Of a stretch of DNA of 12,696 nt, positions 1 through 12,696 are shown piece after piece. Source of the stretch: Halieaceae bacterium (lineage in GTDB: Bacteria > Pseudomonadota > Gammaproteobacteria > Pseudomonadales > Halieaceae); the NCBI GenBank assembly GCA_018666055.1, contig JABJAS010000377.1, positions 1 through 12,696 of the forward strand, in the 5' to 3' direction. A program made the translations under genes and the position numbers. How positions within the stretch are numbered: the first letter of the stretch is position 1; every line of letters begins with the position of its first letter. Below the pieces are notes generated by a model. It ran no database searches, had not been told where the DNA came from, and saw only the letters and a list, made by a program, of their open reading frames with translations.

Positions 1-2
1 AT

Positions 3-224
3 GAAACTTGGTACGAGATGTACACAAAGCCCGAGAATGCTCAAAAGCGCGCGGGTTGGTGGGGGCCAGAACACATTGGGAAAAGCGGCCCCAACGGCGT
101 CGTTATGCTGGCTCAAGTCAGTGATGAAGAAAAACTTACAGAGCATATGAAGTTTGTTAGAGAAATGGCTGCGAAAATGGGTATGAACCATGAAATTTAC
201 AAGTTAGCGCCTGACAGCAGATAA
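3..224 (+). CDS. Small hypothetical protein, 5' end cut off by the window edge
   Basis: The reading frame is open from the window edge (frame 3) to a TAA at 222-224, so this is probably the C-terminal ~73 residues of a longer protein; an in-frame ATG at 18 also exists but has no Shine-Dalgarno sequence in front of it. The visible part is rich in W, G and charged residues (GWWGPEHIGK), followed by a stretch ending in an amphipathic helix (EEKLTEHMKFVREMAAKMG). This could fit a small alpha/beta protein, but I do not recognise the family. It is followed by a hairpin at 236-259. It is more AT-rich than the transport operon. Function unknown. Confidence 0.55.
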   Translation, partial: ETWYEMYTKPENAQKRAGWWGPEHIGKSGPNGVVMLAQVSDEEKLTEHMKFVREMAAKMGMNHEIYKLAPDSR

Positions 225-235
225 AATTAACCGAC

Positions 236-259
236 GCTAGTGTGCTTTGGCTCACTAGC
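236..259 (+). terminator. Hairpin after the first gene, possible terminator
   Basis: GCTAGTG (236-242) pairs perfectly with CACTAGC (253-259). A T-T mismatch and two more G-C pairs close a TTTG loop. It starts 12 bases after the stop of the first gene, a typical position for a transcription end. No T-run follows it, so it is not a classical Rho-independent terminator. Confidence 0.35.
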
Positions 260-398
260 CCGCCCATCAGCGCCAATAGCCGTGTCATATCCCAACGCCT
301 CTTCCGATTGGATCGCGCCAGAATAACAACGCCAGCATACAATTCATTGCTATGCTGCGTTGCTAACTATACGACTTTTTATATGGGGAGTTATTTAC

Positions 399-623
399 AT
401 GACGGATGATGAAAAGCAGGCGCTCAGGAATTCAATGGCTGGCAAAAAAGTATCCAAAATGACCGCACAAGAACGTGAGCTTTTTGATCAAGAGTTTCAG
501 TATGGATTGAACGATACGCCTCAAAAAATAAAGCCTGCCAATATAAAGTCTGAACAACTCTCAAAGTCTAAAGATCTAACGATGGGCTTTCTAAGCCGCA
601 TGAATTTAATCGTCAGAAAGTAA
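399..623 (+). CDS. Hypothetical protein, 74 aa
   Basis: The frame stays open upstream to 360, but the ATG at 399 is the better start because GGGGAG at 385-390 sits 8 bases before it. The product is small, hydrophilic and highly charged: MTDDEKQALRNSMAGKKVSK at the N-terminus, then an acidic/amphipathic segment (MTAQERELFDQEFQ), a polar Lys/Gln-rich middle and a short C-terminus (MGFLSRMNLIVRK). There is no signal peptide, membrane segment or motif I recognise. It stands alone: the next gene on this strand begins some 800 bases downstream. The Shine-Dalgarno sequence and amino-acid composition support a real gene; the function is unknown. Confidence 0.5.
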   Translation: MTDDEKQALRNSMAGKKVSKMTAQERELFDQEFQYGLNDTPQKIKPANIKSEQLSKSKDLTMGFLSRMNLIVRK

Positions 624-958
624 TTGCATCAACCCCTACCGCAGAAAATAACACGCCTACGCACAGGCGCGCCCGCGTGCCAAACTTTTGATGTACCGTC
701 AACAAAAGGGGAGACTAAAGGGCTGTTGTTGTTCTTGTTGGTGACCATTGGTTAACGATTGCGTCTGTGCACAGAAATTTGTTGACAGAAACGACGGTCT
801 GCAGACAAGTGAGCTTTCACTCAGGTCGCAACAACAGACGCTTTGCGCCCTCAGTGATCGTTGTACAAAATCATCTATGGCTAAGAGTGTAAGGCTGTTG
901 CACTTGCGAGATGATCGTCAGCAAAAAGAGCTAAGTTGATGGAGGTGAAGTAAGCCAA
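624..958. other. Gene-poor stretch without a supported gene
   Basis: No reading frame here has both a credible ribosome binding site and a protein-like composition. A TTG-started frame at 748-939 (63 codons) exists but looks like chance. Small hairpins occur, for example CGCCT/AGGCG at 654-669 and AGTGA/TCACT near 810-825. The stretch may be decayed sequence or hold signals I cannot read. It lies downstream of the convergent marR-type gene, whose terminator could be here, but I see no clear one. Confidence 0.4.
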
Positions 959-1381
959 TCAGCTGAGTTGAGACAAAAGCTGAATCAGTAGCGCGCCGTC
1001 CGTGGTGTCAAATTTCTGCGCCAAAGCGCGGTCTTCGTCTTCGACGTCCCGTCGAACCTGAAGCATCCGCCTGCGTCCCAAGTTGGTCAACAGCAGGTTG
1101 ATCTGGCGTTGATCCGCAGTTGCGATCTGGCGATGAACCAATCCATCAGACACCATTCTGTCTACGAGTTTACTCAACGCGGGCGGATTGAGAAGCGCCT
1201 GCTTTGCCAATTCCCCCATGGAAAGTCTGGTGCCTGCGTCAAGGCATTCCATGACGCGCCACGCTTCGATATGGATGCCATGCTTTTTCAGGCGAACCGT
1301 CAGAGATTGCGTAACCGACCTATGCGCCGCAGCCAGTGCGTAGGATAGGTGGTTGCCAAGAGGGTTAAGCTCGGTCGTCAT
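959..1381 (-). CDS. MarR-family transcriptional regulator
   Basis: 140 aa, the usual MarR length. The winged helix-turn-helix spans about residues 38-103: helix region LSMGELAKQALLNPPALSKL, recognition helix around 66-76 (NPPALSKLVDR), then the beta-wing ATADQRQINLLLT and TNLGRRRM, matching the family's wing pattern in which the usual D-R-D-R-R becomes ADQRQ. Flanking N- and C-terminal helices would form the dimer interface. The frame is open further upstream (to 1681), but ATG 1381 is chosen because the protein then starts where MarR proteins start and CTGGGG lies just upstream. The longer frame would run through the divergent promoter region. MarR proteins are usually ligand-relieved repressors, often responding to aromatic acids or acyl-CoA esters. 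The gene is divergent from the AmiC-like gene, with an inverted repeat between them, so it probably represses itself and the amide genes. The ligand is unknown. Confidence 0.88.
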   Translation of the reverse strand: MTTELNPLGNHLSYALAAAHRSVTQSLTVRLKKHGIHIEAWRVMECLDAGTRLSMGELAKQALLNPPALSKLVDRMVSDGLVHRQIATADQRQINLLLTNLGRRRMLQVRRDVEDEDRALAQKFDTTDGALLIQLLSQLS

Positions 1382-1400
1382 TGTCAGCCCCAGTAAATAG

Positions 1401-1427
1401 TTCCAAGTGAAATTAGTTGACTTGGAA
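1401..1427. promoter_or_regulatory. Inverted repeat TTCCAAGT-N11-ACTTGGAA, candidate MarR operator
   Basis: TTCCAAGT (1401-1408) and ACTTGGAA (1420-1427) are perfect reverse complements, centred on base 1414. Two further inner pairs (AA at 1410-1411 with TT at 1417-1418) extend the symmetry. It lies 19 bases upstream of the MarR start codon and overlaps candidate promoter elements for both directions. Autoregulation from a palindrome in a divergent intergenic region is typical of MarR regulators; the binding itself is inferred. Confidence 0.6.
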
Positions 1428-1438
1428 AGAAAATTCAA
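1410..1438 (-). promoter_or_regulatory. Weak candidate promoter for the MarR gene
   Basis: On the minus strand TTGAAT (1438-1433), 17-base spacer, TAATTT (1415-1410). The -10 is at the centre of the inverted repeat, which fits autorepression. The -10 matches the consensus in only three of six positions. Confidence 0.25.
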
Positions 1439-1445
1439 TTGCAAT
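1417..1445 (+). promoter_or_regulatory. Candidate sigma-70 promoter for the AmiC-like gene
   Basis: TTGACT (1417-1422), 17-base spacer, TGCAAT (1440-1445). The -35 lies inside the right arm of the inverted repeat, so a bound repressor would block it. If this promoter is used, the transcript begins near 1452 and the TTG start at 1439 cannot be the real start of the downstream gene. Confidence 0.4.
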
Positions 1446-2605
1446 GTGCCAATTCGCCGTGCAAACTTGAGAAGGATGTGGCCCTGGGACGCCTCATAGC
1501 AGAGCTGGCTCTTCCAATCGAACTCGCGGATTTGCGCGAGAGCGGCCATTTGCACGCCCAAGGCAGTTTCAACGTAGCACTTCTCATTCCGATGTGTGGG
1601 CCTGCTGGCATTTGGGCGCCGTCTTGCATTTCGAGCGCGCAAGTCGCCGCCGTCGAATTGAACCGCACCAACGGGATTCAAGGTCGCCGTGTTCAGTTGA
1701 TCATGATTGATGCCGCACTTGAGGCCGGTGAACCCATTGAAGAAATCATCAATGAACTAATCGAGCTTGGCGCAATTGATGCTATTGTCGGTATGCATCT
1801 GAGCGCGGTACGCCAAAGGTTGTCCAAGGTAGTGCGCCAACGCATTCCCTACATCTACACCCCGCTCTATGAGGGCGGTGAAACGACGCCGGGCCTTTTT
1901 GCCATTGGCGAGACTCCTCAAGAACAGCTCGGCCCTGCAATGGCGATGCTCCAGCAGGAGTTTCGACCACGCAAATGGGCGCTGATCGGGAATGATTACG
2001 TCTGGCCACGCAGCTCGCACAGTTTTGCCAAGACTTGCCTAAAGCAGATGAATGTGGATTTGGCGATGGAGTGCTATGTGCCTTTCGGGCTGCCCAGCAT
2101 GACTGATCTGGTCGATAGGTTAGAAGCGTCGGGCGCGGACGCTGTGCTTGTGTCACTGGTTGGGCAAGACGCCGTCAATTTCAATCGCGTGTTCGGTCGT
2201 CGTGGCCTGCATAAATCGATCCTACGTCTGTCCTGCGCGCTTGAGGAAAATGGTTTGATGGCCTGCGGTGAGGGGAATTTAGAGCGACTGTTTTCTGTCT
2301 CTTCGTACTTTGGGTCCATTTCCACCGACGCGAATGCCTGCTTCAAAGAGCGCTACTATGCGATGCATGGGGAAATCGGCCCTGCGTTGAATTCGCTTGG
2401 GCAATCGACTTATGAAGGCTTACATTACCTGTCTGCGCTCCTGCGCGACTTTAACGACATCTGGCGCGAACGCTCTACGCAGGACGCTCTTCCTGTGATT
2501 CACGAAAGCGGTCGCAGTTTCGAGCAAAACGGCAAGCGAGAGCGGCCATCCGTCTACCTAGCGCGTGCGAATGGTGTACAATTTTGCGACTTTAAGATGC
2601 TGTAA
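1439..2605 (+). CDS. AmiC-like amide-sensing regulator (periplasmic-binding fold, cytoplasmic)
   Basis: The protein has the type I periplasmic-binding fold (Peripla_BP_5/AmiC group), beginning at FNVALLIPMCGPAG. It carries the motif pairs YTPLYEGGETTPG and GNDYVWPRSS, which resemble AmiC's YPTPYEGFEYSPN and GSDYIYPRES as I recall them, and ends with an AmiC-like C-terminal strand region. There is no signal peptide, so it should stay in the cytoplasm and sense rather than transport. In Pseudomonas, AmiC binds amides and releases the antiterminator AmiR; no AmiR (ANTAR) gene is in this window. The start is uncertain. TTG 1439 has GGAAAG 9 bases upstream. GTG 1478 has a purine-rich site that is too close. 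TTG 1550 has GAGAG 7 bases upstream and would begin just before the fold. Codon usage looks coding from about 1467. It is divergent from the MarR gene and lies directly upstream of the amide operon. An orphan binding protein is the alternative reading. Confidence 0.8.
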   Translation: MQCANSPCKLEKDVALGRLIAELALPIELADLRESGHLHAQGSFNVALLIPMCGPAGIWAPSCISSAQVAAVELNRTNGIQGRRVQLIMIDAALEAGEPIEEIINELIELGAIDAIVGMHLSAVRQRLSKVVRQRIPYIYTPLYEGGETTPGLFAIGETPQEQLGPAMAMLQQEFRPRKWALIGNDYVWPRSSHSFAKTCLKQMNVDLAMECYVPFGLPSMTDLVDRLEASGADAVLVSLVGQDAVNFNRVFGRRGLHKSILRLSCALEENGLMACGEGNLERLFSVSSYFGSISTDANACFKERYYAMHGEIGPALNSLGQSTYEGLHYLSALLRDFNDIWRERSTQDALPVIHESGRSFEQNGKRERPSVYLARANGVQFCDFKML

Positions 2606-2611
2606 TATAAT
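2584..2611 (+). promoter_or_regulatory. Candidate promoter for the flotillin-transporter operon
   Basis: TTGCGA (2584-2589), 16-base spacer, consensus TATAAT (2606-2611), overlapping the last codons of the AmiC-like gene. The TATAAT lies in very AT-rich sequence, so chance is possible. It would give a leader of about 115 bases that contains the two dyads at 2636-2654 and 2680-2698. Confidence 0.3.
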
Positions 2612-2635
2612 AAAAATATCAATATTATTTTCCTA

Positions 2636-2654
2636 TTCAAATAAAATACTTGAA
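2636..2654. promoter_or_regulatory. Imperfect dyad TTCAAAT-N5-ACTTGAA
   Basis: Seven-base arms with six of seven positions paired. The right arm, ACTTGAA, resembles the half-site ACTTGGAA of the dyad between the MarR and AmiC-like genes. It may be a second, weaker site for the same regulator in front of the operon; the spacing between arms differs from the first site. Confidence 0.25.
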
Positions 2655-2679
2655 ATGGAAAATAAAATCTTACACCGTA

Positions 2680-2698
2680 GCGTCAATTAATATGACGC
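2680..2698. promoter_or_regulatory. Inverted repeat GCGTCA-N7-TGACGC
   Basis: Perfect 6-bp arms (2680-2685 and 2693-2698) around ATTAATA. It stands in the leader just upstream of the flotillin-like gene. It could be an operator for an unidentified regulator or an RNA hairpin in the leader. No T-run follows, so a terminator is unlikely. Confidence 0.35.
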
Positions 2699-2735
2699 GC
2701 TGGCCTGTGTGCCGGGCGCGGTGGGGGAACTTATA

Positions 2736-4364
2736 TTGTACTGGCTCTTGGCTCTCGTCATATTGGCAATCGCTCTGTTGATAGGCATCTGGTTTCTTCA
2801 GCGGTTTTACGCAAAAGCATCATTGGAAAGCGCACTGGTGCGCACTGGCATGGGTGGTCGGCGCGTGATGACAGACGGCGGCTGTGTCGTGCTTCCGATT
2901 GTGCATCAATCACTGCGCGTGTCGATGCAGACCAACACAGTAACCGTGTCGCGCACGGGGCGCGAAGCGGTGCTCACATCCGATCCTTTGCGCGCTGACA
3001 TCACTATGAAGTTCGAGCTGCGCGTCGCCTCAGATACCGACAATATCGCCACGGCGGCACAAGCCTTTGGTAATCGCATTGCGCGTGGCGGCGAAGCATT
3101 TGAGGATGCGCTCGCAGGTCCTTTGGCCAACGCAATCCAGACCGCGGCTGCATCGCGCGACCTGAACAATATCCACCTAGAGCGTGCCGAATTCACCCAA
3201 GAGGTCGCGCGCGTTGCCTCTGAGCACGCAGGACGGTTGGGGCTAGAGCTGGTGACAGCCGCGCTTGTTTCGATTGACCAAAGTGATTTCGCAGGGCGGG
3301 ATGAAAACAACACGTTCAACGCCCGCGGCATGCGTCGTTTGGCGGAGATGGTCGCAGAAGAACGCAAGGCCCGTATTCAGGTCGAAACGTCGACAGAAGT
3401 CGCCGTTCGCGAACATCGTTTGGCGCAACATCAGCGCCAGATGGAACTGCAAAGGGCAGAGCGTGAAACAGAGATTGCCCAGCAAGAACACCTGACCAAA
3501 CTTGAAGCCGAAGCGGAGAGCCGAGCGTCGCAAGCACACTCAGAGGCGCGGCATGCCTCTGAGACCAGTCGCATCCAGCAAGAACAAGAAACAGAAGCTG
3601 CGAAAGTCACTAGCGATGAGACACTCCGCAAGGTTGAGATGCGCGCTTTGCTGGAACTGGAAGAAGCGAAAATTGCCAACGGCATCAAGCTGTCGCAATC
3701 GCGCACCAAAGAGGCAAAAGCGCAAGCCGAAGAGGAAGAAGCCCGCGCGCAGGTGATTCTAGCGGCCGAAAACGTGCAGGCGCAAAAGGAACGTGCGGTC
3801 ACGATGCGCGAAAAGGAAATCGCCAAACTCAAGCAAGACCGCGATATTGAACTTGAAGGTGCACGCGTCAAAAGCGACGTCAACACGCTGCTCGCCAAAG
3901 CACAGGCAGATGCATCGGTCCGCACCGCCAGCGCACATGCTGAGCAATCCGCGATGGAGGCCGAAGCGGCAGGCAGAGTTGCCCTCAATTCGGCAGAGAA
4001 TACACTCAGCGATGCGGTGATCCGCATGCGCCTTGAAGAACGAAAACTCGACAAAATGCCCGAGATCATGACTCAGATGATGAAGCCTGTGGAGAAAATT
4101 GACTCAATCCGCATCAACCAGATCAGCGGACCCAGCGGCGGTTCTGGCTCTTCTGGCGGCGACGGGGTCGACAGTGCCTTTGGGGCCGCGATGGACCAGA
4201 TACTCGGAATGGCCGTACGCCTGCCTGCAATGAAGCAAATGGGCGAAGAGATCGGCTTGAATTTTGACGTCCCCACCGCCGGGCGCACCGCAGATTATGC
4301 CAACCGCATTAAGGCCAAAGACGAACCTAAACCCACTTCTAAATCCGAAAAACCCAAAGAGTGA
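2736..4364 (+). CDS. SPFH-domain (flotillin/YqiK-like) membrane protein
   Basis: 542 aa from TTG 2736. One N-terminal membrane helix (about residues 2-21, YWLLALVILAIALLIGIWFL), an SPFH/band 7 domain (about 22-185, with VRTGMGGRRVMTDGG), then a long Ala/Glu/Arg/Gln-rich coiled coil (about 200-435), a Gly/Ser linker (about 466-480) and a short C-terminal domain. This is the flotillin layout. Flotillins oligomerise on the cytoplasmic face and scaffold membrane protein complexes. Start choice: GGGGGA at 2723-2728 is 7 bases before TTG 2736; GTG 2709, in frame, would add 9 residues but lacks a clear ribosome binding site. It stands 46 bases before the binding-protein gene with no terminator between, so it is probably the first gene of the transporter operon. 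The YqiJ-type partner that often accompanies YqiK is not seen. A role in organising the transporter is inference. Confidence 0.85.
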   Translation: MYWLLALVILAIALLIGIWFLQRFYAKASLESALVRTGMGGRRVMTDGGCVVLPIVHQSLRVSMQTNTVTVSRTGREAVLTSDPLRADITMKFELRVASDTDNIATAAQAFGNRIARGGEAFEDALAGPLANAIQTAAASRDLNNIHLERAEFTQEVARVASEHAGRLGLELVTAALVSIDQSDFAGRDENNTFNARGMRRLAEMVAEERKARIQVETSTEVAVREHRLAQHQRQMELQRAERETEIAQQEHLTKLEAEAESRASQAHSEARHASETSRIQQEQETEAAKVTSDETLRKVEMRALLELEEAKIANGIKLSQSRTKEAKAQAEEEEARAQVILAAENVQAQKERAVTMREKEIAKLKQDRDIELEGARVKSDVNTLLAKAQADASVRTASAHAEQSAMEAEAAGRVALNSAENTLSDAVIRMRLEERKLDKMPEIMTQMMKPVEKIDSIRINQISGPSGGSGSSGGDGVDSAFGAAMDQILGMAVRLPAMKQMGEEIGLNFDVPTAGRTADYANRIKAKDEPKPTSKSEKPKE

Positions 4365-4410
4365 TCGCTAGGTCAACTCTTCCCTCAAACCAATCAACGG
4401 AGGACTTTTC

Positions 4411-5631
4411 ATGTCTCTGAATAGGCGAGAACTACTTGGCGGCGCAGCAGCGCTTAGCACCGCAGCGATGCTACCCAGCGCAGCAATGGCGGCGGATACG
4501 ATCCAGCTGGGATCAATCCTAGATACATCTGGCATCTTCGACGCTTATGGCAAGCCGATGGATCAAGCAATGCGCTTGGCTGTGAAAGAGATTAATGATG
4601 CGGGCGGCTTGCTTGGCAAACAGGTCGAGGTTGCCGCCTATGACACCCAATCTGACATGGCGCTTTATTCGCAATATGCGCAGCAACTGACCCGTCAGGA
4701 TAAAGTCGATGTTGTTCATGGCGGCATCCTGTCAGCCTCGCGTGAAGCGATCCGTCAGACCATGCGCAAGACCAAGACCTTGTACTTCTATAACGTTCAA
4801 TACGAGGGCGGCGTCTGCGACCGCAACATTTTTGTGACGGGCGTGACCCCCGCCCAGCAAGTCGAGGTGCTTGTGCCTTACGCGATGAAGAAATCCGGAC
4901 CCAAGGTGCATATCCTTGCGGCTGACTATAACTACGGCCAGATTACCGCGCGCTGGATTCAGAAGTTTGTCGAAGAAAACGGCGGCGAGGTCGTTGCGAC
5001 TGACTTCTTCCCGCTCGATGTTGCTGATTTCGGCTCCACAATCACCAAAATCCAGCAAACCGCGCCGGATCTTGTGTTCGCACCTCTCGTGGGCGGCGCG
5101 CATCTGTCCTTCTTCCGCCAATGGTCGGCTGCGGGGATGAAAGACAAGATCCCACTCGCCTCGACGACAATGGGCGTGGGCAATGAGCACAAGGTTCTGA
5201 CCCCCGAAGAGGGCAACGGCATCATGGTCGCGTATAACTATAGCCAAGAGCTCGACACACCCGCCAACATTGCATTCAAAGAAAAATGGCAGGCGGAATA
5301 TGGAGATACAACTGCAATCCACGAATTAGCCGTGTCCACCTATCAAGGCATCATGCTTTGGGCCGCAGGCGTGCAAAAAGCAGGCAGCATTGAGCGCGAC
5401 GCAGTCGTGGATGCGCTTGAGACGGGCATCTCCATCGAGGGTCCAGCAGGCAAAGTCACAATTGATCCGCAAACCCACCATGCCACAGTCGATGTGCACA
5501 TCATGGAGTTCGAAGGCCAAGGGATGACCGTGATCGAAACCCTGCCTCAACGTGCGCCAATCGACACGCAGGCCGTGTGCGATTTGCAAGCTAACCCCGG
5601 CGACAACACCCAATACGAGATCGAAATCTGA
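4411..5631 (+). CDS. ABC transporter substrate-binding protein, urea/short-chain amide type (UrtA/FmdD-like)
   Basis: 406 aa. CGGAGGA at 4398-4404 gives a strong ribosome binding site. The N-terminus has a twin-arginine signal (NRRELLGG, Arg5-Arg6), a hydrophobic Ala-rich stretch and a likely cleavage after AMA (residue 27), so it is exported folded through Tat to the periplasm. The mature part is a type I binding fold (IQLGSILDTSGIFDAYG, KEINDAGGLLGKQVEV) with the amide/urea-group signature YFYNVQYEGGVCDRN. The only two cysteines I see (in GGVCDRN and AVCDLQ) could form a disulfide. The family binds urea, short amides or branched-chain amino acids. The neighbouring amidase and AmiC-like sensor favour an amide; no urease genes are in the window, which argues against urea. 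Four membrane/ATPase genes follow. The exact ligand cannot be read from the sequence. Confidence 0.9.
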   Translation: MSLNRRELLGGAAALSTAAMLPSAAMAADTIQLGSILDTSGIFDAYGKPMDQAMRLAVKEINDAGGLLGKQVEVAAYDTQSDMALYSQYAQQLTRQDKVDVVHGGILSASREAIRQTMRKTKTLYFYNVQYEGGVCDRNIFVTGVTPAQQVEVLVPYAMKKSGPKVHILAADYNYGQITARWIQKFVEENGGEVVATDFFPLDVADFGSTITKIQQTAPDLVFAPLVGGAHLSFFRQWSAAGMKDKIPLASTTMGVGNEHKVLTPEEGNGIMVAYNYSQELDTPANIAFKEKWQAEYGDTTAIHELAVSTYQGIMLWAAGVQKAGSIERDAVVDALETGISIEGPAGKVTIDPQTHHATVDVHIMEFEGQGMTVIETLPQRAPIDTQAVCDLQANPGDNTQYEIEI

Positions 5632-5650
5632 TCTCTTTGGGTTCACCTTG

Positions 5651-5674
5651 TCAGGGCGGTACGGGCCGCCCTGA
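5651..5674 (+). promoter_or_regulatory. Strong hairpin between binding-protein and permease genes
   Basis: TCAGGGCGG (5651-5659) pairs perfectly with CCGCCCTGA (5666-5674) around a 6-base loop, followed by a pyrimidine-rich TCCTCTCCTTTC. It starts 19 bases after the binding-protein stop. Such hairpins often protect the upstream mRNA or cause partial termination, giving more binding protein than permease. The run after the stem is only partly T, so attenuation or mRNA stabilisation is likelier than full termination. Confidence 0.6.
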
Positions 5675-5700
5675 TCCTCTCCTTTCAGACGTTTGGCACT

Positions 5701-6567
5701 ATGGACCTCAGTTTCGTTATACTTGTTGAAGTGCTCTACGGCGTCGCGTCGCTGGTCTTGATCAGTGCGGGACTGGCTGTGGTGTTTGGCATGATGAAAG
5801 TCATTAATCTTGCCCATGGTGAATTCATGATGATGGGCGGCTATGCGACCATCACCGCAGTTGGGCTTGGCGTGAATGTCTTTGTTGCCATGCTCGTCAT
5901 CGCGCCCCTTGTTGTCGGCTTGATCGGCTTGATCGTCGAACGCTTGGTGATCCGGCATCTATATGGACGCTTGGTCGATACGATGCTGGCCACTTGGGGT
6001 CTTAGCCTCGTCTTTATCGGGCTGGCAACGATGATTTTTGGCAATACAACGACCGGTATCTCAACTCCAATCCCCGGCTTCGCCTTTGGTGGCTATCAGG
6101 TCAACGGCTACAACTTTTTCATTATCATCGTGTCCATTGTACTGGTCATCGCGATGTATGCAGTGCTGCGCGGGACGCGCGCGGGCTTGATTGCGCGCGG
6201 CACGATGCAGCGCTCCAATATGGCGGCAGCACTCGGCTACAGCCCAGACCGCATCTACATGATGACCTTCTTCTGCGGCTCCGCCCTGTCGGGACTTGCA
6301 GGTGCCGTTCTGGCCCCTTTGGTCGGCCTCGTTCCAACATCTGGCGGGGCTTATATTGCCAAGGCTTTTATCACTGTGATCTCGGGCGGGCCGTCGCTGA
6401 TCGCAGGTCTTGTCAGTTCTGCGACCTCGTTCGGCCTCGTCAGCCAGTTCTTCACATTCGCCATCTCGCCCGTCATCGGTGAAGTCGCGCTATTGATCGC
6501 TGCTGTCGTCTTGCTGCGCACCATGCCGCAAGGGATTACTGGTCGCTTCTTCAAGGGCAAATTGTGA
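5701..6567 (+). CDS. ABC transporter permease, LivH/UrtB type
   Basis: 288 aa, strongly hydrophobic, with about eight predicted membrane helices. LivH-family features are the N-terminal GMMKVINLAHGEFMMMGGY, the ALGYSPDRIYMMTFFCGSALSGLAGAV coupling-loop region and the GG-rich ISGGPSLIAG segment. The length matches LivH-type permeases rather than the much longer proteobacterial UrtB, so calling it UrtB in the strict urea sense is not justified. The start ATG 5701 has only a poor ribosome binding site (no GGAG-like sequence in the 15 bases before it), so translation may be low or helped by the upstream structure. It ends in TGATG with the next permease gene. With that gene it should form the membrane channel through which the amide is imported. 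Confidence 0.88.
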   Translation: MDLSFVILVEVLYGVASLVLISAGLAVVFGMMKVINLAHGEFMMMGGYATITAVGLGVNVFVAMLVIAPLVVGLIGLIVERLVIRHLYGRLVDTMLATWGLSLVFIGLATMIFGNTTTGISTPIPGFAFGGYQVNGYNFFIIIVSIVLVIAMYAVLRGTRAGLIARGTMQRSNMAAALGYSPDRIYMMTFFCGSALSGLAGAVLAPLVGLVPTSGGAYIAKAFITVISGGPSLIAGLVSSATSFGLVSQFFTFAISPVIGEVALLIAAVVLLRTMPQGITGRFFKGKL

Positions 6568-7592
6568 TGGGCCGTAACGGGTCGCACGATGTGATTATCA
6601 CGCTGGTGGTTTCGGCTTTGCTGATTTGGCTGCTGCCGTTGATGATCAGCACTTACACGCTAACGGTGCTCGTAATCTATGGCATGTTAGGTCTTAGCCT
6701 TGGGTTGATCTGGGGCTTTGGCGGGATCTTGTGCTTTGGTCAGGCCGCTTTCTTCGGATTGGGTGCCTATACCTATGCCATCGCTGCCATCAATATTGGC
6801 GAGAGCACGCTTCCGATGGTCCTCGCGGTTCTGGTGCCAGCGGTGTTCGCGGCTCTGCTCGGAGCAATGATGTTTTATGGGCGACTGACGGATGTTTATT
6901 TGGGTGTCATCACGCTGGTAGTCACGCTGATCCTGTTCAAATTTGTGAACTCCACCGCTGGTCCGCAATACGTGATTGGCAACGCGCGCTTGGGCGGTTT
7001 CAACGGCATCCCCGGCTTTCAAACGCTTAATGTGCCGGGTGATCCCAGCGCTTATATCTGGGGCGATCCCTATTTCTATGTCTGCGCCATCGCTTTGGTG
7101 GCCGTGTTCTTGTTGGTCACTTGGCTGCTTCGTTCATCCTTCGGGCGCATTGCCGTCGGCATTCGAGAAAACGAAGTACGCATGGGCCTCATGGGCTACG
7201 ACATAGCCGCACGCAAAACCGTATTGTTTGCGATAGGGGCTGCCATTGCGGGGCTTGCAGGCGCGTTGTTCGCCAATTGGGGTGAGATTGTTACGCCCAA
7301 ACTGTTTTCGCTCGGCCAATCGGCGGAGATCATTATTTGGTGCATCGTCGGCGGACTTGGCACGCGCTTTGGTCCCATCGTTGGAGCCGCTGGATTGGCA
7401 TATCTCAAGTTCATGCTGGGCCAGCAAAGTATGATCGACAATACGCTGATCATGGGCTTGATCCTTGTGCTGTTCGTTGTGTTCTTGCCGCGCGGTCTGG
7501 TGCCCGCAGTTGCTTCGCTCTTGAACAGCATTTTTGGCCGCACCAAGCGCAAGCCAAGACCTCGCCGGATGAGGACCGCTCGCCATGGTTGA
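6567..7592 (+). CDS. ABC transporter permease, LivM/UrtC type
   Basis: 341 aa. The ATG at 6567 overlaps the preceding stop by one base (TGATG), pointing to translational coupling; GTG at 6564 is an in-frame alternative. It is a multi-spanning LivM-family protein with the typical LGLIWGFGGILCFGQAAFFGLGAY near the N-terminus, the GIRENEVRMGLMGYDIAARK cytoplasmic loop that contacts the ATPases, and GGLGTRFGPIVGA towards the C-terminus. The tail is very basic (KRKPRPRRMRTARHG); part of it is encoded where the reading frame overlaps the next gene by 8 bases. It should pair with the upstream LivH-type permease. The family assignment is firm; the transported compound is inferred from context. Confidence 0.9.
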   Translation: MGRNGSHDVIITLVVSALLIWLLPLMISTYTLTVLVIYGMLGLSLGLIWGFGGILCFGQAAFFGLGAYTYAIAAINIGESTLPMVLAVLVPAVFAALLGAMMFYGRLTDVYLGVITLVVTLILFKFVNSTAGPQYVIGNARLGGFNGIPGFQTLNVPGDPSAYIWGDPYFYVCAIALVAVFLLVTWLLRSSFGRIAVGIRENEVRMGLMGYDIAARKTVLFAIGAAIAGLAGALFANWGEIVTPKLFSLGQSAEIIIWCIVGGLGTRFGPIVGAAGLAYLKFMLGQQSMIDNTLIMGLILVLFVVFLPRGLVPAVASLLNSIFGRTKRKPRPRRMRTARHG

Positions 7593-8301
7593 AACGGTCT
7601 TGGAAACCAGCGGACTGACGATGCGCTTTGGCGGTGTAACGGCAAGCGACAACGTCAATTTCAAGCTCAAAGCACGCGAGCTGCGCTGTTTGATCGGACC
7701 CAACGGTGCGGGCAAATCGACCTTCTTCAAATGCGTGACAGGGCTGTTGACGCCGACTGAGGGCCACGTTTACATGCGCGGGCAAGAAGTCACAGGATGG
7801 CAACCGCATCAGATTGCATCGCTCGGCGTGGGTATCAAAACCCAGACACCGAACGTGATGGACGCGCTCAGCGTACATGAAAATGTCTGGCTCGCAGCAC
7901 GACGCTTCTACAACATCGCTGAAGCAAGGGATCGCGCAGATGCGATCATCGAACGATTGACTTTGAGCGCGATTGCACGCACGCAGTTGGGACAATTGGC
8001 GCACGGCGAACGCCAGCGCGTGGAACTGGGGATCGTCGCCGTCGCCGATCCGTGGCTCGTGCTGCTCGATGAACCCGCCGCTGGAATGAGCGCGCAGGAT
8101 GTGGATCGCATGACCGAAATCATCCACGAACTGACCCGCTTTGCCGCCGTCGTTATCGTTGAACATGACATGCAATTCATCCGCTCCATCGCGCAAACCG
8201 TGACCGTGTTCCATCAAGGCGCAGTGTTGATGGAGGACAATGTCGAACGCGTCATGTCAGATCCCCAAGTGCGCGCCGTTTATCTGGGAAAGAAAGCGTG
8301 A
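7585..8301 (+). CDS. ABC transporter ATP-binding protein, LivG/UrtD type
   Basis: 238 aa nucleotide-binding subunit. Walker A GPNGAGKST (38-46), Q-loop Gln87, signature LAHGERQ (138-144) in place of LSGGQ, Walker B LVLLDE with Asp162 and catalytic Glu163, and switch His194 (VEHDM). The AHGE-type signature resembles UrtD proteins (LSHGQ-like) more than classical LivG. It starts at ATG 7585 inside the end of the permease gene (8-base overlap) and ends in TGATG with the next gene, so the translation of all three is coupled. It should form an ATPase heterodimer with the ATPase half of the next protein on the cytoplasmic side of the permeases. Confidence 0.9.
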   Translation: MVETVLETSGLTMRFGGVTASDNVNFKLKARELRCLIGPNGAGKSTFFKCVTGLLTPTEGHVYMRGQEVTGWQPHQIASLGVGIKTQTPNVMDALSVHENVWLAARRFYNIAEARDRADAIIERLTLSAIARTQLGQLAHGERQRVELGIVAVADPWLVLLDEPAAGMSAQDVDRMTEIIHELTRFAAVVIVEHDMQFIRSIAQTVTVFHQGAVLMEDNVERVMSDPQVRAVYLGKKA

Positions 8302-10673
8302 TGGCTGAAGACCGCGATATACTGCTCTCCGCCAAAGGGTTGTCCGGTGGATATGGCCGAGTGCCGATCCTGCATGGCATCGACCTTGATGTCGGCGAAA
8401 ACGAAGTCGTTGGCGTGCTCGGCCATAACGGCATGGGCAAGACAACGCTTTTGAAAACCCTGATGGGCTTCCTTCCTGCAAGTTCGGGGCAAGTGCGCTA
8501 TGACCAGAACGATATCACGCGACTGCCGCCCAATGAGCGCAGTCGAATGGGCCTCGGCTATGTACCGCAAGGGCGCGGCATCTTTCCGCAACTCACTGTA
8601 CGCGACAACCTGCGCTTTGCTTGGCACGATCATGGCACTGGCTCCGAGCAGGGTCTGATAGAAGCGGTACTCGCTGATTTCCCGCGCCTCTCTCGCCTGC
8701 TGGACCGCGAAGGCGGGGCTTTATCAGGGGGCGAGCAACAATTGCTCTCACTGGCGCGTTGTCTGATGGGCGAGCCGGACTTCCTACTGCTCGATGAGCC
8801 AACAGAAGGCATCCAACCCTCCATCATTGAGGAAATGTCTGAAACTTTGTTGACACTGCGCCAAACTCGCGGGCTGTCCATTTTGCTGGTTGAGCAGAAC
8901 TTTGACTTTATCGCTGATTTGTCTGACCGCGTTTTGGTGTTGGAGCGTGGACGGATCACAGGCGAGCTGACGCGCGAAGAGCTGTCAGACCAATCCAAGG
9001 TCGATCAATTTCTGGGCTTTGGCGCTGCACGCGGCACGCGTCAAAACACCGCACGGGCGCAAACACAGGCCGCTGCGCCACAACGCGTCGAAACATTCGC
9101 CCAGCAACCAAGCGCAGCTGCGCCCAATCCATCGCAACCCTCAGTATCAACGGTGACAGCAATGACTATCAAACGCCCTACTCTTGCTCAAATGCGCACC
9201 ATGGCCGAACGGTTCGGGATGAGCCTATCGGACGAGGACCTGAGTGAATACTCAGAGATCATCGAGCCATACATGCAGGCTTATGACAGGTTGGACGCGA
9301 TGCCCGACAACTTGCCGGAAGTGCGCTATCCACGTAGCCCCGGCCGTTTCCCTGATCCAAGCGAAAACCCGCTCAATGCATGGTACGTCAAAACTGAGGT
9401 GCGCGGCGCGCCTGATGGAAAATTGCGTGGCAAGAGGATTGCACTAAAGGATACAATCTGCCTTGCGGGTGTACCGCTGATGAACGGCTCATCCATCATG
9501 GAAGGCTACACGCCAGAAATTGACGCCACTATCGTCACGCGGATGCTCGACGCAGGCGCTGTCATCGCAGGCAAAGCACATTGCGAGAACTTTTGCCTCT
9601 CTGGCGGTTCGCACACCAATGCCAAAGGCCCAATCCATAACCCTTATAAACGCGGCTATATGGCAGGCGGCTCTTCTGCTGGATCTGCTGCATTGGTCGC
9701 AGCAGGCGAGGTGGATATGGCAATCGCTGGCGATCAAGGCGGCTCTATCCGTATCCCGGCCTCCAATTGCGGCTGTTATGGGATGAAACCCACACATGGT
9801 TTGGTGCCCTATACAGGCGCAATGCCGATTGAACAAACCATCGACCACCTTGGCCCTATCACAAACAGTGTCGCGGATAATGCATTGCTATTAGAAGTGT
9901 TGGCAGGCGAGGATGGCCTTGATCCGCGCCAGTACAAACCGAAGGTCTACAGCTACACTGAGGCATTGGGTCGCGGAGCGCATGGACTGCGCATTGGCGT
10001 TTTAAGTGAGGGCTTTGGCCACCCCAATTCAGAAGCGGACGTTGACCAAAAGGTGATGCAGGCCATCGAGCGTTTTCGAGAGCTTGGCGCGCGCGTTGAG
10101 GATGTCTCTGTTCCCGAACATCACACCGCGATGGACGCATGGACTGCAATCACTCTTGAAGGGCTGCAAGATGGCATGATGTGGGGCAATTCCACAGGGA
10201 CCAATTATCGCGGTTTGTTCCTACCCTCAATGACCGATCACATGTCACAATGGAAAGGCCGCGCGGACGAGTTGAGCCATTCGTTAAAGGCCTGCATGTT
10301 CGTTGGGGAGCATTTCCAGCAACAATATCGCGGGCGCTTTTATGGTAAAGCGCAAAACATTATGCGCCGGTGCAATGAACGTTACTTGGCCGCGCTAAAG
10401 CAATATGACCTGTTGCTGATGCCGACGCTGCCAATCAAACCCCAGGAACACCCGCCTGCCGATTGCTCGCTGAGCCTGTACGTGCAGCGTGCCTTTGAAA
10501 TGGTGCCGAACACGGCCCCCTTTAATGGAGGCTTGCCCGCGATGAGCATCCCTTGTGGCTTTAGCGAAGGGCTGCCAATCGGATTACAATTGGTCGGGCC
10601 ACATTACGGTGAAATAAAAATTTATCAGGCAGCCCACGCCTTTGAGCAATCAGGTGATTGGCGCGATATGTAA
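8301..10673 (+). CDS. Fusion protein: LivF/UrtE-type ABC ATPase + amidase (amidase signature family)
   Basis: One uninterrupted frame of 790 codons encodes two complete proteins. Residues 1-239 are a LivF/UrtE-type ATPase: Walker A GHNGMGKT (41-48), Q-loop Gln90, signature LSGGEQ (141-146), Walker B LLLDE (Asp165, Glu166), and Gln199 at the switch position (VEQN, usual in LivF). Residues 240-287 are a flexible linker, about 70% Ala/Gln/Pro/Ser/Thr. Residues 288-790 are an amidase with the Ser-cisSer-Lys triad Lys383 (ALKD), Ser458 (GGSSAGS) and Ser482 (GDQGGSIRIP). Counted from Met288 these are 96, 171 and 195, the triad numbering I recall for the Rhodococcus N-771 amidase, so the amidase is full-length. 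It hydrolyses R-CO-NH2 to acid plus ammonia. The start ATG 8301 overlaps the preceding stop (TGATG). The fusion would place the hydrolase at the inner mouth of the transporter. Separate products through an internal start are possible. Confidence 0.9.
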   Translation: MAEDRDILLSAKGLSGGYGRVPILHGIDLDVGENEVVGVLGHNGMGKTTLLKTLMGFLPASSGQVRYDQNDITRLPPNERSRMGLGYVPQGRGIFPQLTVRDNLRFAWHDHGTGSEQGLIEAVLADFPRLSRLLDREGGALSGGEQQLLSLARCLMGEPDFLLLDEPTEGIQPSIIEEMSETLLTLRQTRGLSILLVEQNFDFIADLSDRVLVLERGRITGELTREELSDQSKVDQFLGFGAARGTRQNTARAQTQAAAPQRVETFAQQPSAAAPNPSQPSVSTVTAMTIKRPTLAQMRTMAERFGMSLSDEDLSEYSEIIEPYMQAYDRLDAMPDNLPEVRYPRSPGRFPDPSENPLNAWYVKTEVRGAPDGKLRGKRIALKDTICLAGVPLMNGSSIMEGYTPEIDATIVTRMLDAGAVIAGKAHCENFCLSGGSHTNAKGPIHNPYKRGYMAGGSSAGSAALVAAGEVDMAIAGDQGGSIRIPASNCGCYGMKPTHGLVPYTGAMPIEQTIDHLGPITNSVADNALLLEVLAGEDGLDPRQYKPKVYSYTEALGRGAHGLRIGVLSEGFGHPNSEADVDQKVMQAIERFRELGARVEDVSVPEHHTAMDAWTAITLEGLQDGMMWGNSTGTNYRGLFLPSMTDHMSQWKGRADELSHSLKACMFVGEHFQQQYRGRFYGKAQNIMRRCNERYLAALKQYDLLLMPTLPIKPQEHPPADCSLSLYVQRAFEMVPNTAPFNGGLPAMSIPCGFSEGLPIGLQLVGPHYGEIKIYQAAHAFEQSGDWRDM
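9152..9164 (+). other. Possible internal translation start for a free amidase
   Basis: ATG 9162 (Met288 of the fusion) is preceded by GGTGA at 9152-9156, 5 bases away, which matches the 3' part of the full Shine-Dalgarno complement AGGAGGTGA. Starting here would give a 503-aa stand-alone amidase whose N-terminus aligns with unfused homologues. The site is moderate, so its use is uncertain. Confidence 0.3.
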
Positions 10674-10685
10674 GGAGCCTTCACA

Positions 10686-12449
10686 ATGACTATCCTGAAC
10701 GAGAGTATTGCAAGCCGGATCCAGAATTTTGGGCTGGATCAAGATGTATCTGTGCAGAGTAATCTCGCGCCACGTGATGGAAGATCATATGTCCAAGGCG
10801 CGAAACATCCTGAACTTGCCTACGCCACGATCCCGCAGCTTTTGCGCGATGCCGTGTCGCGATATGGCCCTCGCGATGCGCTGATCTTTCCGGAGGCGCG
10901 GCTGAGCTACTATGATCTTGATCGCGCCGTAGATTCGTTGGCAGCGGGTTTTCTGGCATTAGGGTTGGAAAAAGGGGATCGCCTTGGCATCTGGTCGCCA
11001 AACCGGCTTGAGTGGGTTCTGACCCAGTTTGCCACCGCGCGCATTGGCGTGATCTTGGTGAACATCAACCCTGCGTATCGCTTGTCTGAATTGGAATATG
11101 CGCTGAACAAAGTGGGTTGCAAAGCTTTGGTTTTGGCGCAGTCTTTCAAGTCGTCTGAATACCTTGAAATGATCCGCACTTTAGCGCCAGAATTGGCGCA
11201 GGTTGAACGCGGGCGGCTGCACTCGGCCAGGTTGCCAAACCTACGCCATGTGATCGTGATGGACGATGCGTCAGAGGGCAGCGGTGTCTGGACCTTTGCC
11301 GAGGTGGCTACGCTTGGTGGGCCGGCGCAGCAGCTGCGCCTGCCTGAGATCGACCGCACGCTTCAACCGGATGACGCGATCAACATTCAGTTCACCTCTG
11401 GCACAACTGGACAACCAAAAGGGGCGACGCTTTCGCACTACAACATAGTCAACAATGCGCGTTTTGTGACGGATCGGATTAAGCTGACGGAGAACGATCG
11501 CCTCGCCATTCCGGTACCGCTCTATCATTGCTTCGGCATGGTAATGGGCGTGCTCGGTGGCGTAAGCAAGGGTGCCGCACTGATCTTTCCGGGTCAAGCG
11601 TTTGATGCAAAGCAAACGCTTGACGCACTCGCCACCGAACGTTGCACTGCGCTTTATGGTGTGCCAACGATGTTCGTCGCGATGCTACAGGAACTGACCG
11701 ACGCATCGCGCGATCTATCCGCTTTGCGCACAGGCGTAATGGCGGGCGCTCCTTGCCCAGTTGATGTGATGAAACAAGTCAATGACCGGATGCACATGAA
11801 CGAGGTCACAATCTGCTACGGCATGACCGAAACCTCACCCGTGTCGTTCCAAAGCTTTGTTGATGACACTACCCAACAGCGCTGTGAAACCGTCGGACGC
11901 GTACATCCGCATCTGGAGGTCAAGATCGTCGATGAAAGCGGTCAAATCGTACCGGTAGGTGTCCAAGGCGAGCTCTGTACGCGCGGATATTCAGTAATGA
12001 AGGGCTACTGGGAAGAGGCTACACGCACATCGGACGCTATTCGCGACGGTTGGATGCATTCAGGCGATCTTGCGGTGCTAGAAATTGACGGATTTTGCTC
12101 GGTCACAGGTCGGGTCAAGGACATGATTATCCGTGGCGGCGAAAACATCTATCCACGAGAGATCGAGGAATTCCTGTTCAGCCATCCCGAGGTGAGCGAA
12201 GTCCAAGTGTTTGGCGTGCCTGATACGCGATTAGGGGAAGAGGTTTGCGCATGGGTTGTGGCCCTAAAAGGCGGCGAAGTTACATCCGAAGCGCTGCGCA
12301 CGTTCTGCGCGGGCCAGATCGCTCACTTCAAAGTGCCGCGCCATATTCGAATCGTCGACGAACTTCCGATGACAATCACTGGCAAGCCACAAAAGTTCGT
12401 CATGCGCAACCGAATGATTGAAGAACTGAGTAGCGGTTCAACTGGTTGA
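10686..12449 (+). CDS. AMP-forming acyl-CoA synthetase (ANL superfamily)
   Basis: 587 aa. All core motifs of adenylate-forming ligases are present: P-loop TSGTTGQPKG (237-246), YGMTETS (378-384), HSGDLA (458-463), the hinge/A8 region GRVKDMIIRGGENIYP (475-490, hinge Asp479) and the catalytic lysine in ITGKPQK (Lys567). The enzyme turns a carboxylic acid, ATP and CoA into acyl-CoA, AMP and PPi. The layout resembles medium-chain or general fatty-acyl-CoA ligases; chain length or aryl specificity cannot be read. AAGGAG (10672-10677) overlaps the stop codon of the fusion gene and lies 8 bases before ATG 10686, so the two are co-transcribed and probably coupled. In context it would activate the acid released by the amidase. 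The similarity of its N-terminus to fatty-acid ligases suggests a less polar acid than acetate, but this is inference. Confidence 0.92.
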   Translation: MTILNESIASRIQNFGLDQDVSVQSNLAPRDGRSYVQGAKHPELAYATIPQLLRDAVSRYGPRDALIFPEARLSYYDLDRAVDSLAAGFLALGLEKGDRLGIWSPNRLEWVLTQFATARIGVILVNINPAYRLSELEYALNKVGCKALVLAQSFKSSEYLEMIRTLAPELAQVERGRLHSARLPNLRHVIVMDDASEGSGVWTFAEVATLGGPAQQLRLPEIDRTLQPDDAINIQFTSGTTGQPKGATLSHYNIVNNARFVTDRIKLTENDRLAIPVPLYHCFGMVMGVLGGVSKGAALIFPGQAFDAKQTLDALATERCTALYGVPTMFVAMLQELTDASRDLSALRTGVMAGAPCPVDVMKQVNDRMHMNEVTICYGMTETSPVSFQSFVDDTTQQRCETVGRVHPHLEVKIVDESGQIVPVGVQGELCTRGYSVMKGYWEEATRTSDAIRDGWMHSGDLAVLEIDGFCSVTGRVKDMIIRGGENIYPREIEEFLFSHPEVSEVQVFGVPDTRLGEEVCAWVVALKGGEVTSEALRTFCAGQIAHFKVPRHIRIVDELPMTITGKPQKFVMRNRMIEELSSGSTG

Positions 12450-12568
12450 TTAAATAAAATTAGTACAGCACAAGAGCAACTTTGGTGGGCCATATGGTGG
12501 CCTCCTGCATCAGACGCCAATGAATATCGCTTGATATCAGGTGTGTAACTGCAGCTTCCTAAGGATTG
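12450..12568. other. Intergenic region after the operon
   Basis: No gene. A small hairpin GGCCA/TGGCC (12488-12502, 5-base loop) lies about 40 bases after the ligase stop but has no T-run, so I cannot call it a terminator. The sequence is AT-rich right after the stop. Confidence 0.3.
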
Positions 12569-12620
12569 TGGTACCCTCACACGGACTCAAACCGCGGACC
12601 TACTGATTACAAATCAGTGC
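12569..12620 (-). pseudogene. 3' half of a tRNA-Thr(UGU), truncated
   Basis: Read on the minus strand from 12620, the segment has an anticodon stem ACTGA/TCAGT around loop TTTGTAA (anticodon TGT, Thr), a 5-base variable loop, a T stem CGCGG/CCGTG (one G-T pair) with loop TTTGAGT, a 7-base acceptor strand TGAGGGT, discriminator A and encoded CCA. The 5' half (acceptor strand, D arm with GG) is absent: the next bases do not pair with TGAGGGT and show no D arm. The conserved C56 of the T loop is T. It is therefore not a working tRNA but a remnant, such as a phage or island attachment site. Confidence 0.6.
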
Positions 12621-12696
12621 TTCTGTTTCTTTGTTATTCATCTGCCTAATTCCATTCTAACTACGCCTCTCTAAAGAAAGCACAATGAGCAAATCA

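Follow-up and report, generated by a model that had tools for sequence, protein, structure and literature searches.

A LivF-type importer ATPase fused to a complete amidase, with a conserved internal start that probably also yields free amidase

Why would the ATPase subunit of an ATP-binding cassette (ABC) importer carry a complete amidase, and is all of that amidase then held at the transporter? The question is raised by a 12,696-nucleotide (nt) stretch of DNA from the genome bin of a Halieaceae bacterium (contig JABJAS010000377.1, positions 1 to 12,696; hereafter referred to as the window), in which one gene encodes a LivF/UrtE-type ATPase that continues in frame into an amidase. At the level of sequence, a binding protein, two permeases and LivG- and LivF-type ATPases make up an importer of the branched-chain-amino-acid and urea type, and its LivF subunit bears the complete amidase on a flexible tether. 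Comparison with relatives suggests that the locus is likely an operon for the uptake and catabolism of a carboxamide, with a single gene giving rise to two proteins. This gene probably makes an 86-kDa fusion and, from a start codon within the linker, a free 55-kDa amidase. The gene and its parts are as follows.

8301 to 10673, forward strand: LivF/UrtE-type ATPase fused to amidase (790 residues, 86.2 kDa).
8301 to 9020, forward strand: ATPase domain (residues 1–240), with Walker A at 41–48, the signature at 141–147, Walker B at 161–166 and VEQN at 197–200.
9021 to 9161, forward strand: linker (residues 241–287, 47 residues), rich in Ala, Pro, Thr and Ser and predicted to be disordered.
9162 to 10673, forward strand: amidase domain (residues 288–790), with the triad Lys383, Ser458 and Ser482; also the proposed nested gene, which would start at the internal ATG at 9162 (503 residues, 55.0 kDa).
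9152 to 9156, forward strand: internal Shine–Dalgarno-like GGTGA, 10 to 6 bases upstream of the internal ATG at 9162.

The frame runs from the ATG at 8301 to the stop codon at 10671–10673 without interruption, with a GTG also present at 8298. The Pfam models ABC_tran (112.5 bits; cut-off, 25) and Amidase (301.3 bits; cut-off, 27) match residues 24–168 and 366–771, respectively, and the NCBIfam amidase model PRK07235 (751 bits; cut-off, 545) aligns its positions 1–505 of 506 with residues 288–789. Because this profile begins at residue 288 and is nearly complete, a whole amidase follows the ATPase, in agreement with a sequence-only reading of the window, which had described a full-length amidase fused in one frame to an ATPase. 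By this match the amidase belongs to the amidase signature family, PRK07235 type, and is predicted to hydrolyse carboxamides. The curated Escherichia coli-type LivF model NF008626 scores 154.3 bits against a cut-off of 441.

The functional motifs are preserved throughout the 92 distinct fused proteins on which our motif, identity and start-codon counts are based. Each residue of the Lys-cisSer-Ser triad is identical in 92 of 92, as are Lys47 (Walker A), Gln90, the signature S142-G-G-E-Q-Q and D165-E166 (Walker B) of the ATPase; the earlier description of intact motifs in both halves thus extends to the whole set. The H-loop position is occupied by Gln199 of VEQN, also in 92 of 92; Gln is usual at this position in LivF/UrtE proteins. 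The linker, put at about 48 residues in the sequence-only reading, has 47 and ranges from 35 to 88 residues among the fused genes (median 51, n = 101 open reading frames (ORFs); 18% Ala, 16% Pro). A predicted structure (40 sequences; mean predicted local distance difference test (pLDDT) score, 78.1; predicted template-modelling score, 0.60) has two folded domains on either side of a segment, residues 240–288, with pLDDT below 50. When solved structures were searched with this model, the best matches were 1ji0 for the ATPase (TMt 0.90) and the Rhodococcus N-771 amidase for the amidase (3a1k and 3a1i; TMt 0.88).

A genome scan, with one genome per species, found 143 relatives, of which the best 80 were kept (L003–L082) and the other 63 were not. 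The ATPase and amidase share one open frame in all 80 kept loci, two of which (L052 and L079) end at a contig edge inside the amidase; as the ranking favours full-length matches, this count is not an estimate of frequency. The sequence-only reading had named a frameshift in the linker, or homologues that are always split, as outcomes that would tell against it; what we found are homologues fused throughout the kept set. The fusion is retained across several orders of mostly marine bacteria, at 55–85% protein identity to that of the window, and insertions and deletions come in whole codons. The kept loci include many isolates, and two complete plasmid records also carry the fusion; Sulfitobacter sp. 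THAF37 and Hoeflea alexandrii are among the carriers that can be cultured. We found no description of an ABC ATPase–amidase fusion in open-licence PMC full text, a scope that leaves aside subscription papers and preprints.

Frequency was sampled by searching evenly drawn genomes with the amidase part; because only the best four candidates per genome were scored, each count is a minimum. In the class of G630, which its named relatives suggest is probably Alphaproteobacteria, 52 of 385 genomes had the amidase (E up to 1e-80), and all 14 matches in frames of at least 740 residues were inspected: 10 were fused (L169–L173 and L175–L179) and 4 unfused, giving 10 fused among 385 genomes. One further match in this sample (G1048, L174) was ended by a contig edge, and a 1,072-residue open frame in G630 was rejected as a fusion, its ATPase genes lying on the opposite strand. 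In the family of G1123, 7 of 25 genomes matched, comprising five fused loci, one ended by a contig edge and one split. The amidase was found in 6 of 369 genomes of the window genome's class, 4 of 140 of its family and 22 of 398 of its phylum, and each time the window genome was the only fused one. Over 10.2 kb the window contig shares 91.5% identity with Planktotalea arctica, and the tetranucleotide distance between it and the bin's other contigs is 0.20, compared with 0.11 for a contig of similar length (15 of 433 contigs sampled, 4 unreadable). From this identity, this distance and the absence of another fusion in the three samples of its own lineage, the contig appears out of place in its genome bin, through either misbinning or recent transfer.

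Is the fusion the only product? The linker is the most variable part of the protein, with a mean pairwise identity of 26%, compared with 71% for the ATPase, 70% for the N-terminal part of the amidase and 78% for the amidase core. At its end, the codon for Met288 is ATG in 90 of 92 fused genes, GTG in one and ATC in one (L015). Most fused genes have GGTGA at −10 to −6, and some distant ones have GGAGG-type sites. Of the 64 genes with Val285, 63 have G as the third base of codon 284 (linker background, 29%), through nine different codons that end in G and encode eight or more amino acids, and 60 encode Val285 itself by GTG (background, 42%). Pairing energy to the 16S tail averages −5.82 at Met288, −3.48 at 2,942 other in-frame Met codons and −3.71 at 7,133 random codons, and at known operon starts the means range from −4.19 (permease 1) to −9.78 (acyl-CoA synthetase). 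As the decisive control, we shuffled synonymous codons while keeping each protein (43 representatives, 768 positions). Codon 288 reached a z of −8.3, and codons 287–290, which represent one site, were the four strongest of the 768 positions; the next was −4.8, and z had a spread of 1.76 across positions. Met473 and Met394 gave +0.9 and −3.2, respectively. The 25 GGTGA carriers gave −7.7 and the 18 others −3.9. The start codon and ribosome-binding site are therefore conserved beyond protein constraint, and by these codon-level comparisons the internal start is kept under selection within the linker. A free amidase is thus probably also made, in which case not every active site is tethered.

Several observations weigh against this interpretation. 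The Shine–Dalgarno strength at Met288 is unexceptional (rank 45 of 762 positions), and the Met columns 473, 394 and 393 are as strong or stronger in raw energy; energy alone, which does not discriminate, was dropped as a criterion, and the codon-level tests were used in its place. Among the 18 representatives lacking GGTGA, only L024 and L172 have 2% or fewer of their shuffles as strong. Some fused genes have weak sites (−2.1 in L057 and L059; −2.3 in L079), and L015 lacks the internal ATG. Moreover, the representatives share ancestry, so the z and binomial values overstate certainty.

Against this background we weighed other accounts of the gene. There is almost no chance that an error of sequencing, assembly or annotation joined two genes: the window does come from a fragmented genome bin, 66% complete, but the same open fusion recurs in every kept locus, in many isolates and in two complete plasmid records, and these independent assemblies rule out a frameshift or artefact. 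It is also unlikely that the fusion is the sole product, with the amidase always at the cytoplasmic mouth of the importer and the conservation of Met288 and GGTGA being a relic or serving the protein. The frame is open in every fused ORF counted (n = 101) with linkers of 35–88 residues, which argues for selection on the joined protein, and the exception of L015, the weak sites and the ordinary raw site strength would suit this account; yet selection on the protein cannot explain constraint on individual bases at silent positions, nor does the account sit well with a start codon kept in 90 of 92 genes at 55–85% protein identity to the window.

We regard as less probable still the opposite account, in which the loss of a stop codon produced the fusion as a side effect, its linker is cut or ignored, and the free enzyme does the work. 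The retained internal start, a disordered linker accessible to proteases and one locus (L218, described below) that gets by with separate genes all speak for it. A neutral read-through, however, would soon regain a stop, whereas the genes are in frame in 80 of 80 loci from several orders with whole-codon insertions and deletions, and only one clear secondary split was seen, among the 25 genomes of one family. The earlier proposal that fusion places the amidase at the transporter stands in so far as the fusion is conserved and its catalytic residues are intact, but it is incomplete, as the retained internal start makes free amidase likely.

How did the fusion arise? In the nearest unfused operons (L150, L181, L182, L185, L190, L194 and L094), binding protein, permease, permease, LivG, LivF and amidase follow in the same order as separate genes, which bears out the earlier statement that the hydrolase is a separate protein in related importers. 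In unfused relatives, the livF stop lies 3–181 nt upstream of the amidase start (18 rows listed, several being the same gene twice). In a quick amidase tree (38 fused representatives of 91, and 68 unfused), the fused rows require two changes, because the long unfused L187 and L204 fall among them; constraining the fused rows to one group improved the likelihood (+11.49) and was not rejected (P value of the approximately unbiased test (p-AU), 0.622). In a LivF tree (38 fused, 23 unfused), which contains one row, L147, with an absurd branch length of about 10, the fused rows form one side of a single branch with a support of 95.

The locus L218 adds a reversal. Its LivF lacks an amidase but stands in the tree beside Sneathiella fused proteins (99/97), and with it added, a clade of all fused proteins is rejected (p-AU 0.001); that L218 has lost the fusion is itself a point against our reading. 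A separate amidase, 61% identical to that of the window, lies about 6.5 kb downstream of this LivF and adjoins a nitrile hydratase alpha subunit (308 bits; cut-off, 249.85). Across 1543–11762 of L218, the LivF of the fused clade is followed by an acyl-CoA synthetase, and the amidase stands apart, by nitrile hydratase subunits. As L218 is nested among fused LivF proteins, the history that fits these trees is a single old gain followed by at least one loss; the starting point would have been an operon in which livF and the amidase gene were separate neighbours. The linker is probably the former spacer between the two genes: the spacer would have turned coding, with the downstream amidase gene keeping its own ribosome-binding site within the new linker.

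The remaining genes of the window are as follows.

7585 to 8301, forward strand: LivG/UrtD-type ATPase, the stop of which overlaps the fusion start as TGATG.
6564 to 7592, forward strand: permease 2 (BPD_transp_2, LivM/UrtC-like).
5701 to 6567, forward strand: permease 1 (BPD_transp_2, LivH/UrtB-like).
4411 to 5631, forward strand: periplasmic binding protein (Peripla_BP_6), a relative of UrtA and AmiC.
10686 to 12449, forward strand: acyl-CoA synthetase (AMP-binding).
2709 to 4364, forward strand: flotillin-domain protein.
1439 to 2605, forward strand: binding-protein-like protein related to UrtA and AmiC, with no signal peptide evident by eye.
959 to 1681, reverse strand: divergent MarR-family regulator, in a frame longer than the homologous 423-nt genes on two plasmid records.

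This company is nearly constant. The binding protein is present in 77 of 80 fused loci, and the acyl-CoA synthetase follows the fusion in 78, the other two loci ending before its place. Flotillin occurs in 74 of 80; five of the six loci without it end before its place, and in L020 there is none in the 0.84 kb upstream of the binding protein. In the even sample, fused operons have flotillin in 10 of 10 cases and the synthetase in 9 of 10 (absent in L179), and the seven unfused operons have no flotillin (0/7) and no close acyl-CoA synthetase (L181 has a 32% match only). Flotillin is thus a constant member of the fused operon. The AmiC-like gene is found in 64 of 80 fused loci; seven of the 16 without it have 1.9–2.8 kb upstream of the binding protein, so that some fused loci may truly lack it. 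The gene at 1439 to 2605 leads the operon and could possibly encode a cytoplasmic amide sensor, with no AmiR-type partner in view.

What does the operon take in? The binding protein is nearer to UrtA (166.8 bits) than to AmiC (98.5 bits), and all five transporter proteins fall below the curated cut-offs for UrtA (255.1 against 492.75), UrtB (190.1 against 250.3), UrtC (168.5 against 296.2), UrtD (235.7 against 304.1) and UrtE (261.4 against 285.8), as they do for the archaeal UrtA, UrtB and UrtC models. Urea is therefore an unlikely substrate, and a urea importer was rejected. We also tried to read the substrate from the pocket of the binding protein: alignment with UrtA and AmiC shows a partly shared region (QYEG kept, Pro replaced by Asn), from which nothing firm follows. 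By sequence, the amidase is of the type found in nitrile pathways. Nitrile hydratase adjoins nine distinct unfused amidase loci; the DNA examined around the 80 fused loci shows none.

From the make-up of the operon and this amidase type, we propose that a carboxamide is imported, hydrolysed and trapped. A short or medium carboxamide would enter through the importer. Amidase, both tethered and free, would split it at the membrane into acid and ammonia, and the acid would be trapped as acyl-CoA by the acyl-CoA synthetase. The nearest solved relative, the Rhodococcus N-771 amidase, forms dimers through its N-terminal helical domain; free amidase protomers may therefore pair with tethered ones and so be held at the transporter, and flotillin may scaffold the assembly. 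The tether may channel substrate and, as the sequence-only reading proposed, might make import effectively irreversible; in L218, however, LivF lacks the amidase and the latter is encoded about 6.5 kb away, so the tether is not indispensable everywhere. The acyl-CoA synthetase alone could make uptake effectively irreversible. More tentatively, and with the balance tilted against it, the dual-product gene might build an importer-bound metabolon, in which the fusion anchors free amidase by dimer contacts and a mixed tethered and free dimer sits beside the acyl-CoA synthetase and a flotillin scaffold, so that the amide is hydrolysed and CoA-activated on entry.

Beyond the fusion itself, what is likely new here is that it arose once, long ago, from a split operon, that it has been reversed in nature, that flotillin and acyl-CoA synthetase constantly accompany it, and that an internal start is under selection, making a free amidase likely. 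That import is coupled to catabolism at the membrane has often been proposed and is seldom testable; here the coupling is written into one gene in several orders, with closely related split operons and one lineage without the fusion as natural controls. The nested start offers a clean genetic handle, as the fusion and the free enzyme could be removed separately. The locus also carries a warning for annotation: two plasmid records name the fusion 'amidase' only, which hides the LivF subunit of the importer. If our reading is true, the operon would serve as a model of the retention of small, membrane-permeable amides by marine bacteria.

A comparison with known systems sets the window apart in several ways. 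The Paracoccus methylovorus plasmid NZ_CP070369 and L150, L181, L182, L185, L190 and L194 have the same gene order, with 46–61% amidase or fusion identity, and, unlike in the window, their LivF and amidase are separate. The split operon of P. methylovorus (L094, 9115–13655) is followed by an AmiC-like gene, an ANTAR regulator, a succinate-semialdehyde dehydrogenase and an iron alcohol dehydrogenase, neighbours hinting at a C4 hydroxy-amide substrate. In L152, L180, L186, L191, L192, L195 and L197, the same amidase family is accompanied by a second, different importer set (LivF 37–43% identical), in the order permease, binding protein, permease, LivG, LivF and separate amidase. The urea and short-chain amide importers UrtABCDE and FmdDEF have the same five-part importer as the window, although the window misses all Urt cut-offs. 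In FmdDEF, the hydrolase is separate from the importer. For Urt systems, an excerpt of PMC13209695 likewise describes a separate hydrolase, with amiE/fmdA, and its section 3.3, as excerpted, reports an unfused plan on a Klebsiella plasmid (amiE with amiC, amiR and ABC genes), with acetamidase activity in lysates.

The closest solved match to the window amidase, the nitrile-pathway amidase of Rhodococcus sp. N-771 (Protein Data Bank 3a1i and 3a1k), aligns almost end to end, N-terminal helical domain included (45% identity, 452 bits, TMt 0.88); it stands alone, whereas the window amidase is joined to a transporter subunit. In PCATs, which are ABC exporters that carry a C39 peptidase domain, peptides are processed before being exported. 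As in the window fusion, a hydrolase is joined to the transporter at its cytoplasmic face, but PCATs are exporters, whereas the window encodes an importer ATPase bearing a catabolic amidase. For the internal start, we know of no other case in an importer–enzyme gene. The nearest parallel is SpaO and SpaO-short, for which an excerpt of PMC13059759 describes an in-frame internal start that gives long and short C-terminal products of one gene in one assembly; in the window, by comparison, the short product would be a whole enzyme.

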